DNA of 64,000 nt. It comes from Blautia sp. Marseille-P3087. Lineage in GTDB: Bacteria > Bacillota > Clostridia > Lachnospirales > Lachnospiraceae. The notes below the pieces were generated by a model. The model saw only the letters and a program-made list of their open reading frames with translations, did not search any database and was not told the DNA's origin. Below are positions 3,438 to 63,489 of the stretch, piece after piece (the stretch's first letter is position 1; every line of letters begins with the position of its first letter). A program made the position numbers and the translations under genes. The stretch lies in assembly GCF_900120195.1 (NCBI RefSeq), contig NZ_LT635539.1:564830-628829 (forward strand). Direction: 5' to 3'.

Positions 3438-4880
3438 TTAATAAATAATGATCGGATATCCTCCGTCTATCGTATTGTAGATCAAAGCCGCCTGATCTGT
3501 AGGAAGATTGATGCAGCCATGGCTTCCTGCGCCGGATTTGTATCTGTTTCCGCCAAAAGAAGACTGCCAGGATGCATCATGAAGTCCCTGACCATATACA
3601 AAAGGCATCCAGTATTTTACGGTTACATTATAGCCATATTCCGAACTCGAAAGATTGTACGGGCTTGCCTTATATGCAATCGGCCATGCTCCACGGTAAG
3701 TTTCTCGTCCGGCTTTCGGTGCACCGCTTACAATATCTGTCTCTGTCACCAGTGCTCCATCCTTATAAAGCCAAAGATGCTGATTATCAAGGCTTACTTC
3801 TATGTAACTTCCGGCAAGATCATCACTGCCATTTCGCTGCATGGCACTGATGCTGTAAACCGGATCACGGCTTACTTTACTGCCACTGGCAATATCCTTC
3901 AGAAGCTGCTGTAGTTCTCCATCCTGATCGATCTGAAATCCATATTCATTGTCTGATACTGTCACATCATTTCCATAAGAAGTATGGAATGTACGAGGTA
4001 CATAGATCGTATTATATTTCGTTGCAAGATCCTGTACGTATGTCTTTACCGCATCCTGATCTACACTGATACTGTCAGAAGATATCTGAAGCCATGACTC
4101 GATCGTTGACGTATCAACCACCTGAGTTTCATTTCCAAGTGTATAGGTAACTGTCGAACTGCGGTATTTATTCAGCTTTTCATTTAGTCCAGAAAGCTTG
4201 TTCTGCATATCATCTGAAACTGTCACAGATGGCTGCTGATATACATCTGTTCCCATAACAAGCTTGATCTCGCCTCCAAGAAGCTGTGACGGAAAAAGAG
4301 ACTCCAGTGACTGGTCAACATATGCCAGCAAACGAGACTCATCAATCTGATTTCCCTGTACATCACTGATCAGGGTAAACTGCTTCTGATTCTCATTGTA
4401 CTGAATTGCTGCATCTACTGATGCAGTTCGTTCTTTATCCCCAAAATTTGATTCCTGAAGTGCTGTTTTTTCCTGTTCTTCATCCTTCTGGATTTCATAA
4501 GGAATCTTCTGATCTTCCTGTGTCGCAAACAGTTTTCGGTTGGCTTCTCTGGTCTTCTGAAGTTCAGTAAGCTGTGTTTTAAGCGCATCTTCATTCAGAT
4601 CATAACCAAGATTTCCAAGAGTCGTTTTATATACGACTTCACCATCTTCCTGAAAAGCAACTTTTCGTTCACGGAAATCTTTCAGAATCTTCTGCTCAGC
4701 TTTATCAACAGTGAGTGTGGAAACATCAAGACCATAGATGGAAATCTTCCTTCCAAGTGTATTCGTATCTGCAATATACAGGTAAATAAAAAGTCCTGCG
4801 ATCAGGATCACCATCGCACCGATGCATCCACCCAGTATGATCTTCTTTGTCTTCCTGCTTACCTTGAATTTCTTCCCCAT
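3438..4880 (-). CDS. L,D-transpeptidase (YkuD family) with N-terminal anchor
   Basis: Predicted cell-wall enzyme that forms 3-3 peptide cross-links or attaches proteins to peptidoglycan. The 480-residue protein has a basic N-terminus and one membrane segment (about residues 14-35), then two regions resembling the putative peptidoglycan-binding domain often found before YkuD (about 55-140 and 210-330), a Glu/Lys/Gln-rich stretch, and a C-terminal YkuD domain from about 355. The catalytic motif is SHGCINLP, with Cys at about 456 and His at about 454. It would act outside the membrane. GAGGAATAAATT precedes the ATG. The glycosyltransferase at 2663-3382 follows after 55 bases and is probably cotranscribed. 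Confidence 0.9.
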   Translation of the reverse strand: MGKKFKVSRKTKKIILGGCIGAMVILIAGLFIYLYIADTNTLGRKISIYGLDVSTLTVDKAEQKILKDFRERKVAFQEDGEVVYKTTLGNLGYDLNEDALKTQLTELQKTREANRKLFATQEDQKIPYEIQKDEEQEKTALQESNFGDKERTASVDAAIQYNENQKQFTLISDVQGNQIDESRLLAYVDQSLESLFPSQLLGGEIKLVMGTDVYQQPSVTVSDDMQNKLSGLNEKLNKYRSSTVTYTLGNETQVVDTSTIESWLQISSDSISVDQDAVKTYVQDLATKYNTIYVPRTFHTSYGNDVTVSDNEYGFQIDQDGELQQLLKDIASGSKVSRDPVYSISAMQRNGSDDLAGSYIEVSLDNQHLWLYKDGALVTETDIVSGAPKAGRETYRGAWPIAYKASPYNLSSSEYGYNVTVKYWMPFVYGQGLHDASWQSSFGGNRYKSGAGSHGCINLPTDQAALIYNTIDGGYPIIIY

Positions 4881-59980: not shown

Positions 59981-61510
59981 TTACTGATTCTTCTTATCTA
60001 ATGTGAACCAGAATTCAACGCCATTGTCGTAGTTTTTGACACCGTATTGCTGATGGAGTCCTTCCATGATTGCCTTGACAATCGACAGACCAATGCCGCT
60101 TCCGCCGTACTCTCTCGTTCTCGCCTTATCTACCTTATAGAATTTGTTCCAGAGATTCGGAACATCTGCTTCTGGTATAGGTTTACCGGTATTAAATACA
60201 GTAACTTTCACATGGTCATCTTCCGTAAGTACACGGATCTCGATTTCCCTGTCTCCCTCCAGATGATTCAGTGCATTACTTGTATAGTTCGTTACAACTT
60301 CTTCAATCTTGAATTCATCTGCCCACACATAAACCGGTTTATCAGCATTGAAACTTACTTTTGCTTCTTTTTGCTGAATCATGATATCCATCGACTGCAG
60401 GACCCCTCGGATCACACTGACAATATCAAAACGTTCTACTGTCATCTCATCCCTTCCGGATTCCAGCTGATTCAAAGTGAGAAGATTACGGACAAGCTTG
60501 TTCATCTTACCGGCTTCATCCATAATGACATCACAGTAAAACTCCCTGCTCTCCGGATCTTCGGAAATATTTTCTTTCAGACCTTCTGCATAGCCCTGTA
60601 CCAGTGCGATCGGCGTCTTCAACTCATGAGATACATTATTCAGGAACTCCTGTCTCATCTGATCGATCCGTTCTTTGTTCTCAATATCTTTCTGGAGCTG
60701 ATTATTGACAGATTTCAATTCAGAGATTGTCTTTTCAAGCTGTTCTGACATCCGGTTAAAATTCTCACCCAGTTCATCGATCTCATTGCCGGAATGGCTC
60801 TGGTATTTTGCCTCAAAATCCAGATCACTCATCTTTGTAGAAAGAAGCGTCAGTTCACTGATCGGACGCGTGATACGTTTCGTCACAAACCAGATTACAA
60901 GGCCGCTGATAACGATGATCATAATGCCGACATAGAAATAGAATTTATTGGATATGGAGACGCTCTCACGAATGCTTTCCAGAGGTGTACGGATCAGGAA
61001 ATAACAACCGTTATCCATCTCTCCCCAGCTCTCCACGTATTCCATGCCTGCAAAGCGGTCACTCACCTGCTGGATAACATAATTGTCATTCTGCTGGATA
61101 ACTTTTGCATGGTCGTTCTTCTTATCAAGATCATACACATATCCTACCAGCCGCGCCTCCAGAAGATCTTCGTTACTTCCTACCGCACATACAGTCTGTC
61201 CGTCCGCAGTAATCACGATCCAGGTCAGGTTATTCTCTGAACTGTCCTTAAACATTGCATCTGAAACTTCTGCACTGCAGCTTCCATCCGATGTAGTCTC
61301 GACTTTAAGATCCTCCAGATTCTCGACCGCTTCCTGCAGCACCTCCGTTTTTTTGCTGATGTAATAATGCTCCAGAAACAGACCATTGATCACAGTCGTT
61401 ATGACCATGGAAAGAAGTAAAAGCCCGATAAACCAGACCGAGATCTGCAGACGCAGTGGGTGAAATTTTTTCTTTTTTACTTTCACGCCAGATCTCTGTG
61501 GTTTTTTCAT
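59981..61510 (-). CDS. Sensor histidine kinase
   Basis: Membrane kinase of a two-component system. The 509-residue protein has a basic N-terminus, membrane segments at about 22-45 and 191-210, an extracellular sensor domain of about 145 residues between them, a HAMP linker (about 210-265), a coiled-coil, and the phospho-His in NVSHELKTPIALVQGYAEG (His about 295). The ATPase boxes are present (VVTNYTSNALNHL and YGGSGIGLSIVKAIMEGL). The sensed signal is unknown. Its ATG overlaps the stop of the response-regulator gene by four bases. Confidence 0.94.
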   Translation of the reverse strand: MKKPQRSGVKVKKKKFHPLRLQISVWFIGLLLLSMVITTVINGLFLEHYYISKKTEVLQEAVENLEDLKVETTSDGSCSAEVSDAMFKDSSENNLTWIVITADGQTVCAVGSNEDLLEARLVGYVYDLDKKNDHAKVIQQNDNYVIQQVSDRFAGMEYVESWGEMDNGCYFLIRTPLESIRESVSISNKFYFYVGIMIIVISGLVIWFVTKRITRPISELTLLSTKMSDLDFEAKYQSHSGNEIDELGENFNRMSEQLEKTISELKSVNNQLQKDIENKERIDQMRQEFLNNVSHELKTPIALVQGYAEGLKENISEDPESREFYCDVIMDEAGKMNKLVRNLLTLNQLESGRDEMTVERFDIVSVIRGVLQSMDIMIQQKEAKVSFNADKPVYVWADEFKIEEVVTNYTSNALNHLEGDREIEIRVLTEDDHVKVTVFNTGKPIPEADVPNLWNKFYKVDKARTREYGGSGIGLSIVKAIMEGLHQQYGVKNYDNGVEFWFTLDKKNQ

Positions 61511-62190
61511 TGTGCATCTACCTCAAATTTGTATCCCATTCCCCAGACAGTCTTAATGTATTCTCCTTTATCGCCCATTTTGCTTCGCAGTTTCTTGACA
61601 TGGGTGTCAATGGTACGTGCATCACCAAAATAATCATAGTTCCACACAGAATTTAAGATTTTCTCTCTGGAAAGGGCAATTCCCTGATTTTCAAGGAAAT
61701 ATGTCAGAAGTTCAAATTCTTTAAAACTGAGTTCCATAGGTTTTCCATCCACCGTCGCCTGGTGTGCAGATTTGTCGATTACGATTCCACCGGCGGCAAG
61801 TACATCATTACCGGCATCCTGACCGGTTCTTCGAAGGATTGCCTCCACGCGTGCAACAAGGATTTTCGGACTGAACGGCTTTGAAATATATTCATCCACG
61901 CCCAGGTCAAACCCGAGAAGTTCATCACGCTCATCTCCTCTGGCTGTCAGCATAATGATCGGCACTTTAGAGTTTTTGCGGATCTCACGGCACACTTCCC
62001 ACCCATCCATCTTCGGCATCATTACATCAAGTATCAACAGCGCAATATCTTTTTCTTCATAAAAAATGTCCATTGCCTCTTCACCGTCACCGGCTTCCAG
62101 TACGTGGAAATTTTTCTTCTCAAGGAAATCCTTTACAAGCTTGCGCATACGGCTTTCATCATCTACTACAAGAATCTTCGGGGCTTCCAT
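61507..62190 (-). CDS. OmpR/PhoB-type response regulator
   Basis: The 227-residue protein has a receiver domain with phospho-acceptor Asp at about 55 (LLILDVMMPKMDG), the acidic pair near 10-11 and the conserved Lys in ISKPFSPKILVARVEA near 105, then a winged-helix DNA-binding domain (LSFKEFELLTYFLENQG and RTIDTHVKKLRSKMG). The ATG at 62188-62190 is preceded by GGAGGT at seven bases; a start 18 bases upstream is less likely. It is the first gene of the pair with the kinase. The regulon is unknown. Confidence 0.95.
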   Translation of the reverse strand: MEAPKILVVDDESRMRKLVKDFLEKKNFHVLEAGDGEEAMDIFYEEKDIALLILDVMMPKMDGWEVCREIRKNSKVPIIMLTARGDERDELLGFDLGVDEYISKPFSPKILVARVEAILRRTGQDAGNDVLAAGGIVIDKSAHQATVDGKPMELSFKEFELLTYFLENQGIALSREKILNSVWNYDYFGDARTIDTHVKKLRSKMGDKGEYIKTVWGMGYKFEVDAQ

Positions 62191-62282
62191 TATTCTTACC
62201 TCCATCAATAGTTTTACATTTTCTTTATCTTAGCAGAGATTTATGTAGGTTTTGTGAACGTATTACGGAAATTTCAGGTAAA

Positions 62283-62800: not shown

Positions 62801-63352
62801 TTATGCTGCAACAGTCAACTGAAGGATTGAACGTCCATCTGCAAACAAACGTCTGTAGATTTCTGAACATTTCTTCAGTTTACGGAAAAGGATCCGGGTC
62901 TGCTGTTCATCCCCGTATACTTTCCAGATTCCGCAACACTTATAATTTTTACCCTTCTGTTCGATAAAACCAGTTACATCATCCAACGGATATCCAAGGA
63001 ACAGCCCCACTTCATGAGGGAAACAGTCGTTTTCAAAGAAGCGCTCCTGAAGCTTTCTGATACAGCAGTCAGCTTCCTGACACTCATAGCCACAGTTATT
63101 CAGCAATGTGCAGGCACCTTCACAGCTTAAATCCTGTTGCAGTTTTTTCTTGCGGTATACATAAACAAGAGCTTTGTACTCACTCATTCTAAGTACTTCC
63201 ACAAAAACACCTCTGCTATTCAGCTTATTATTTTCCTCTTCAATTTCTTTATAAAAGCCATCCCTGTTCTCAGGTGTGTAAGTAAACATGTTTGCAGTTT
63301 TGATTCCTGCCAGCGTAGGCGCGCAGTGTGCTATGATTTCAGCTTCTAACAT
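62801..63352 (-). CDS. DUF3793 family protein
   Basis: A 183-residue cytoplasmic protein with the family segments HCAPTLAGIKTANMF near 9-23 and FPHEVGLFLGYPLDDVTGFIE near 111-131, GIWKVYGDE near 141 and RKLKKCSEIYRRLFADGRSI near 157-176. Cys residues are frequent in the middle (CEGACTLLNNCGYECQEADCC), suggesting metal or redox chemistry. The function is unknown. In Clostridia the family is often found beside flavodoxin and ferrous iron transport genes; here it heads the operon with flavodoxin behind a likely metal-regulated promoter. Confidence 0.85.
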   Translation of the reverse strand: MLEAEIIAHCAPTLAGIKTANMFTYTPENRDGFYKEIEEENNKLNSRGVFVEVLRMSEYKALVYVYRKKKLQQDLSCEGACTLLNNCGYECQEADCCIRKLQERFFENDCFPHEVGLFLGYPLDDVTGFIEQKGKNYKCCGIWKVYGDEQQTRILFRKLKKCSEIYRRLFADGRSILQLTVAA

Positions 63353-63370
63353 CCTCAGATCCCCTTGTGA

Positions 63371-63387
63371 ATTAGTTTTATCTAACT
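63371..63387. promoter_or_regulatory. Palindromic operator-like site B, DUF3793-flavodoxin leader
   Basis: ATTAGTTTTATCTAACT, with TTAG/CTAA arms, matches site A (63438-63454) at 14 of 17 positions. It lies inside the transcribed leader, 19 bases before the DUF3793 start. Confidence 0.55.
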
Positions 63388-63396
63388 ATCGGTTTT

Positions 63397-63430
63397 AAAT
63401 TTACGGATATGTTTCCATACCCGTAAATTT
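63397..63430 (-). promoter_or_regulatory. 15-bp leader hairpin with a GAAA loop
   Basis: On the minus strand AAATTTACGGGTATG and CATATCCGTAAATTT pair over 15 positions (one G-U) around GAAA. It lies between operator-like sites A and B, within the DUF3793 transcript. No T run follows, so it does not look like a terminator; it may be an mRNA-stability or protein-binding element. Confidence 0.6.
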
Positions 63431-63437
63431 ATTATCT

Positions 63438-63454
63438 GTTAGTTATTTCTAACT
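63438..63454. promoter_or_regulatory. Palindromic operator-like site A at the transcription start
   Basis: GTTAG-TTATTT-CTAAC lies seven to twenty-three bases past the -10 box, at the expected start point. The TTAG/CTAA arms recall DtxR/IdeR/MntR-type operators; iron or manganese control is inferred from this and from the flavodoxin gene. Confidence 0.6.
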
Positions 63455-63460
63455 GGTATG

Positions 63461-63489
63461 ATAGTACAATATTTTCCGCGTGCTGTCAA
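63461..63489 (-). promoter_or_regulatory. Promoter of the DUF3793-flavodoxin operon
   Basis: Minus-strand perfect TTGACA (63484-63489), 17-base spacer, TACTAT (63461-63466). The start near 63454 falls on operator-like site A. Confidence 0.85.

Follow-up and report, generated by a model that had tools for sequence, protein, structure and literature searches.

The DUF3793–flavodoxin locus

The window analysed here is a 64,000-nucleotide stretch of the genome of Blautia sp. Marseille-P3087 (contig NZ_LT635539.1). It contains, on the minus strand, a gene for a DUF3793 protein followed by a gene for a short-chain flavodoxin (Table 1), the two probably being carried on one transcript. The same-strand gene upstream of DUF3793 encodes a P-type ATPase (L010:4359-6431), upstream of which lies a gene whose product partially matches the Fur family (L010:6983-7576; L051). 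A PhoR/PhoB-like two-component system (59981-62208) is encoded on the same strand behind the flavodoxin gene.

The DUF3793 protein has a near relative in Blautia sp. MSJ-19, to which it is 91% identical. An AlphaFold2 model, built from 7 sequences with a mean pLDDT of 67.6, had no match in the PDB at E <= 0.001 and gave no indication of function, and no paper on the function of DUF3793 was found in a literature search that took in few subscription journals and preprints.

Table 1. Genes and leader elements of the DUF3793–flavodoxin locus, in window coordinates
Feature	Position	Strand	Basis
-35 hexamer, TTGACA	63484..63489	-	sequence
-10 hexamer, TACTAT; 17-bp spacer	63461..63466	-	sequence
Operator 1 (op1), GTTAGAAATAACTAAC, at about the transcription start	63438..63453	-	exact palindrome, also present at feoA, ZIP and other promoters
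Leader hairpin, 15-bp arms and GAAA loop	63397..63430	-	sequence, folding
Hairpin arms; GAAA loop	63430-63416 and 63411-63397; 63415-63412	-	sequence
U-tract position in relatives (-17..-10 from op2), here degenerate, TAAATTTA, 4 T of 8	63396..63403	-	
Operator 2 (op2), GTTAGATAAAACTAAT, within the transcribed leader	63371..63386	-	sequence
RBS-like element, AAGGGGAT	63359..63366	-	sequence
DUF3793 protein, 183 aa, start at 63352	62801..63352	-	PF12672, E 1.2e-58, 198.2 bits (cut-off 25.1)
Short-chain flavodoxin, 140 aa	62354..62776	-	PF00258, E 1.9e-20; TIGR01753, 157.5 bits (cut-off 123)

An initial annotation of this DNA had described a promoter, two similar operators and a leader hairpin ahead of the two genes, and all of these elements are found on the minus strand. 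The two 17-mers that it compared are indeed identical at 14 of 17 positions; its palindrome of 17 bases is in fact a 16-bp dyad, GTTAG-N6-CTAAC. A TTAG-N9-CTAA pattern was dropped because its spacing is wrong, N6 being correct. The second operator sits between the promoter and the ribosome-binding site. This location within the transcribed region, as expected of a roadblock site, recurs in the 78 leaders described below.

The hairpin of the window comprises 15 pairs, one of them a G.U that is a mismatch in DNA. Its predicted pairing probability is 0.999 at positions -22 to -19 relative to op2, and its GC-containing core stops at 63404, which is exactly -18 from op2. It thus forms the stable, GC-containing stem-loop of an intrinsic terminator; the U-tract directly behind the stem is degenerate, and because the corresponding stretch holds only four T in eight positions, the hairpin is not classed as a canonical terminator. 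The leader therefore retains the register described below with a poor U-tract, as does that of its closest relative (L076).

An operator shared with metal-transport genes

When the spacer of GTTAG-N3..10-CTAAC was left free, the motif was found eight times in the 3.3-Mb genome, in every case with a spacing of six. The same spacing was seen in 64 of the 75 matches listed for eight relatives (78 matches in total). The constancy of the spacing in this genome, its prevalence in the relatives, and the large excess of the paired pattern over a reversed control (see below) all argue that the operator is not a chance sequence.

In this genome, sites lie in the DUF3793 leader and at two ZIP transporter genes (ZIP1, L011; ZIP2, L014), an ABC exporter pair (L013) and a DUF2325 gene (L016), and at feoA (L015) the operator overlaps the -10 element. 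A single operator is thus common to metal-uptake genes (feoA, two ZIP genes and others), as would be expected of a DtxR regulon, and the recurrence at feo or other metal genes anticipated in the initial annotation is borne out by the sites at feoA and both ZIP genes. Two further operators flank the promoter of a gene for a secreted Tp47/Big_2 protein of 1281 aa (L012:1274-5219; PF14888, PF14889), which, judged from these sites, looks iron-regulated. The Tp47-type gene of one relative (L126) has a leader in the order op1, terminator, op2. General membership of ZIP genes in the regulon was rejected: among 30 loci with ZIP homologues, the operator was present within 220 nt upstream of the gene at eight and absent from this interval at 22.

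Paired operators in other genomes

Genomes were searched for two operators in tandem (GTTAG-N6-CTAA N28-58 GTTAG-N6-CTAA), with the reversed pattern as control. The paired pattern occurred in 81 of the 396 genomes of the family to which Blautia belongs, compared to one of 396 for the control, and in 44 of 393 genomes of the class, again compared to one. Among the matches listed, 86 family loci (L104-L189) were inspected, and 66 leaders were kept in which the next gene matched a regulon protein of the Blautia genome by blastp, a comparison on which both leader orientation and gene assignment depend. Addition of 18 leaders from the genus gave 84, and removal of near-duplicates left 78. The 66 assigned family leaders precede genes for DUF3793 (22), FeoA (17), DUF2325 (14), ABC proteins (9), flavodoxin (2), a Tp47-type protein (1) and a 101-aa protein (1). 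Beyond the family, 24 loci from the class search were inspected and 19 leaders counted, 17 assigned by blastp and two, with NifH-like genes, by eye; five FeoB leaders among these 19 are near-identical.

The DUF3793 and DUF2325 genes of relatives, which are often adjacent and in one operon, share the order op1, hairpin, op2, with hairpins that are unrelated and in many cases followed by a T-run. As read from the sequence, several ABC leaders use op1 as the 5' arm of the stem, and many feoA leaders place one operator in the -35/-10 spacer and a further one inside the middle hairpin. The idea that the hairpin is a third operator was set aside, as it holds only for the feoA-type leaders and one ABC leader.

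The hairpin and the second operator keep a fixed register

A scorer based on stems ran into the A-U pairs of the U-tract and mixed different stem-to-op2 distances, and was replaced by a profile in which the first base of op2 served as the sole alignment point for the 78 leaders, with the hairpins ignored. Pairing probability in this alignment is 0.89-0.90 at -19 to -22, drops to 0.27 at -27, in the loop, and is about 0.7 at -31 to -37. T frequency at -17 to -10 is 0.58-0.77 on the sense strand compared to 0.23-0.33 on the antisense strand in the same alignment. The profile is that of a terminator, with the stem ending at -18 and a U-tract from about -17 to -10 relative to op2. Stem pairing of at least 0.5 was found in 69 of the 78 leaders and a U-tract in 58. 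Both were present in 52, compared to four on the antisense strand and to a mean of 2.33 and a maximum of 7 of 78 in 100 dinucleotide-shuffled sets. The 26 leaders that fail this joint measure include that of the window and both in which flavodoxin is the first gene.

The register is equally apparent when T-rich windows, defined as 8 nt with at least 6 T, are located independently of stems. Such windows occur in 53 leaders and start between -21 and -16 in 52 of them, 45 falling at -18 to -16, whereas on the antisense strand 30 leaders contain one, at scattered positions. In 200 mononucleotide-shuffled sets of the 78 leaders, a mean of 3.0 and a maximum of 8 were in register. A strict set of 64 leaders or clusters with stems less than 50% identical, which removes shared ancestry in part only, had 41 of 42 T-rich windows in register. 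Windows starting at -21 to -16 were seen for most gene classes: DUF3793 (20/27), DUF2325 (17/21), FeoA (9/17), ABC (5/9) and Tp47 (1/1), with none for the 101-aa protein (0/1) or the flavodoxin-first leaders (0/2). Outside the family, a T-rich window is present in 17 of the 19 leaders and starts at -19 to -16 in 15 of those 17; 10 of the 17 assigned leaders pass the joint stem-plus-T measure. In two leaders outside the family, the gene that follows encodes a NifH-like ATPase (MIKIALYGKGGIGKSTT...; L196, L197), and the order op1, terminator, op2 is found in the same register.

The distance from op1 to the U-tract ranges from 10 to 87 and that from op2 to the start codon from 7 to 170. The stretch of about eight bases between U-tract and op2 is nearly constant in length and unconserved in sequence, which argues for a constraint on distance. 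An RNA-level step had been proposed in the initial annotation, and the comparison supports it insofar as the hairpin of the relatives belongs to an intrinsic terminator whose position relative to op2 is fixed; that annotation did not notice the register, which is the unexpected feature. DNA looping between op1 and op2 was also considered and is not favoured, as the operator centres lie between 43 and 120 apart and these distances show no clear periodicity of 10.5 bp (Rayleigh p about 0.054).

Variations on the arrangement

Two leaders of the same genome are cleaner examples than that of the window. In the DUF2325 leader (L016), the stem ends at -17/-18 and is followed by about 6 T in 8, as counted by eye. 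In the ZIP2 leader (L014), a promoter-like TTGTTA-17-TATACT, assigned by eye and lacking any operator match, is followed by a terminator with its T-window at -18 and then by the operator. The ZIP2 gene and its leader are immediately preceded by CRISPR-like repeats (L014: about 4500-4760). The ZIP2-like order is retained in relatives (L069, L073, L219, L220), with different stems in some, and three ZIP leaders (L218, L219, L220) combine a terminator and op2, the T-window at -18, with no op1 match within the 220 nt examined.

Conversely, seven DUF3793 leaders with a single operator (L101-L103, L034, L035, L037, L040) carry it at the start site, 16-17 nt from the start codon, and have no terminator; ZIP1 of this genome likewise has its operator at the start site without a terminator. 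Since ZIP2-type leaders have both elements and these single-operator leaders lack the terminator, the terminator tends to accompany the downstream operator. The feoA leader of this genome is an exception (L015:4890-5120), with a terminator-like hairpin and T6 downstream of the operator at -10 and no op2. Two leaders (L054, L055) have a hairpin near the usual register and an A-run in place of the T-run ahead of op2.

A roadblock model and its main rival

The operators and their regulon, the linkage to DtxR homologues (see below), the terminator and its register to op2 are established at the level of sequence. From these we infer the identity of the repressor and its metal, the occupancy of op2 and a step in which polymerase is stalled and released. 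A fairly probable model is that the DUF3793–flavodoxin genes form an iron-starvation operon under a DtxR-type repressor, in which op1 would stop initiation and a roadblock at op2 would drive a terminator at its U-tract. With plentiful iron, the metal-loaded repressor would bind op1 over the start site and block initiation, and would also occupy op2 inside the transcribed leader. A polymerase that escaped op1 would make the terminator hairpin immediately ahead of op2, and at the point where its active site lay in the U-tract, its front edge would meet the repressor bound there. The roadblock would hold the polymerase while the hairpin closed, and the transcript would be released in a roadblock-assisted form of intrinsic termination. 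Without iron, the repressor would leave, and polymerase would pass the U-tract fast enough for read-through.

More generally, the chances seem slightly better than even that this is a widespread switch of the Clostridia, in which a DNA-bound metal repressor gates an intrinsic terminator and op2 parks polymerase on the U-tract, some ZIP-type genes using terminator and op2 alone. According to PMC3913778, a DNA-bound, cleavage-dead EcoRI mutant halts B. subtilis RNA polymerase when the active site is 12-13 nt short of the EcoRI site. The same distance ahead of op2 falls within the U-tract, so the proposed repressor, by slowing polymerase there, would raise termination, although the stall distance of EcoRI may not be transferable to a DtxR-type dimer. 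Because its U-tract is weak, the leader of the window may act by roadblocking with little true termination, and the A-run leaders are explained by the model only as roadblocking with weaker release. Counted against the model are these A-run leaders, the 26 of 78 leaders that fail the joint measure, feoA without op2, ZIP1 with an operator only, and the operator-less ZIP homologues (22/30).

The main rival, which we regard as unlikely, holds that two layers act independently: the operators would repress by occlusion or roadblock, and the terminator would be a constitutive, repressor-independent damper on leaky transcription. Many leaders do have stem-loops of usable predicted strength irrespective of a repressor, and roadblocks by PurR, GalR, CcpA, CodY and LacI are described without a terminator in the parts of PMC10310618 and PMC4132739 available to us. 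Independent layers, however, give no reason why the distance between U-tract and op2 should vary by only about 1-2 nt among unrelated stems and genes when that to op1 varies widely, and a strong constitutive terminator would silence the gene under iron shortage as well.

The candidate regulator and its metal

The initial annotation had pointed to a metal regulator of the DtxR/MntR type, and a DtxR-family gene (L015:4220-4594, 124 aa) indeed lies divergent from feoA, its product matching PF01325 (Fe_dep_repress, 43.0 bits, cut-off 26) and PF02742 (Fe_dep_repr_C, 46.4 bits, cut-off 27). There are two clear members of the DtxR family in the genome, along with five matches to the Fur family. Across 110 loci with paired operators, a DtxR homologue is present at 15 and a Fur-family homologue at none. 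The metal ligands of DtxR are Met10, Cys102, Glu105 and His106; a corresponding C-x-x-E-H motif is found in 14 of the 15 linked homologues and in the protein of this genome. The position equivalent to Met10 is Asn in the latter and Met in several relatives.

These data suggest a DtxR-type repressor as the regulator of the operators. Because C-x-x-E-H is as in DtxR and the targets include FeoAB and flavodoxin, the metal would be iron rather than manganese, an assignment that the Asn at the Met10 position makes uncertain. A C-x-x-E-H motif is taken as a sign of an iron-type regulator. Regulation of the operators by a member of the Fur family, or by an MntR of the manganese type, is improbable. 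The five Fur-family matches would provide candidates, and among solved structures MntR (2h09, E 4.7e-12) is closest to the DtxR-type protein, followed by DtxR and IdeR; the distribution of homologues among the paired-operator loci opposes a Fur protein, and the ligand motif and target genes favour iron.

Other roles for the hairpin

With an iron-responsive DtxR-type repressor as the preferred regulator, the hairpin itself could still have other roles. It might mainly stabilize the 5' end of the mRNA or act in RNase or translation control, op2 being simply a second DNA operator. The lack of a good U-tract in the window and the A-runs in some relatives would fit such a role, which is nevertheless very improbable, as the sense-strand T enrichment right behind the stem marks a terminator and the register refers to a DNA site rather than to the start codon, from which op2 lies at variable distance. 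Least likely is a signal-sensing attenuator or riboswitch-like RNA with an incidental op2 register: leader terminator hairpins are typical of attenuators and an alternative hairpin can be read in one leader (L081), but the leaders are short, have no conserved aptamer (64 stem clusters below 50% identity among 78) and, at the 14 loci searched, matched no Rfam family.

Relation to known systems

The proposed terminator gated by a DNA-bound repressor combines features of several known systems. With DtxR/IdeR and MntR it shares the DNA- and metal-binding Pfam domains, a regulator gene divergent from feoA and a palindromic operator of the TTAG/CTAA type, as in the DtxR consensus; it differs in the shortness of the protein (124 aa), in the 16-bp GTTAG-N6-CTAAC site and in the second leader operator behind a terminator. 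As is proposed here, flavodoxin operons of the iron-starvation type yield flavodoxin under iron shortage, with an iron repressor in control. Unlike such operons, the one described here has DUF3793 adjacent, on one probable transcript, and would be under DtxR-type rather than Fur control.

The trp operon has a promoter operator together with an attenuator. The combination of initiation control and a leader terminator in one operon is common to this type of system, the TRAP leader among them (PMC3913778), and to the present one. In contrast to these, there are here no conserved competing RNA structures or ligand-binding RNA, and switching is proposed to depend on a protein bound to the DNA in front of the polymerase.

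Attenuation and roadblock repression have each been described before, as separate mechanisms. C.Kpn2I, the Kpn2I controller, is reportedly a roadblock repressor (PMC6237814) in addition to LacI, PurR, GalR, CcpA and CodY. Roadblock repression shares with the present system a repressor site in the transcribed leader, beyond the start site, and release of the roadblocked polymerase by Mfd or Rho is described for such repressors; the available parts of PMC4132739 and PMC10310618 describe no intrinsic terminator in fixed register ahead of the site. No description of an operator-terminator-operator architecture was found in the literature covered, most subscription journals and preprints lying outside it.

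If the model is correct, the point at which the repressor stops RNA polymerase is tuned so that release occurs at the terminator, across stems, gene families and bacterial families. Such leaders would be compact switches that turn genes off in two steps with little leakage, would follow a simple design rule, namely a stem that ends 18 nt ahead of the operator, and would make it possible to test directly how intrinsic termination is altered by a protein in front of RNA polymerase. The operators would also define an iron regulon of common gut bacteria and place DUF3793 and DUF2325, both of unknown function, in the iron-starvation response. Enolase-like genes, assigned by eye, likewise occur next to these operators: that of the present genome has one operator about 100 bp upstream (L011:8161), and operator pairs precede such genes in two relatives (L124, L131).
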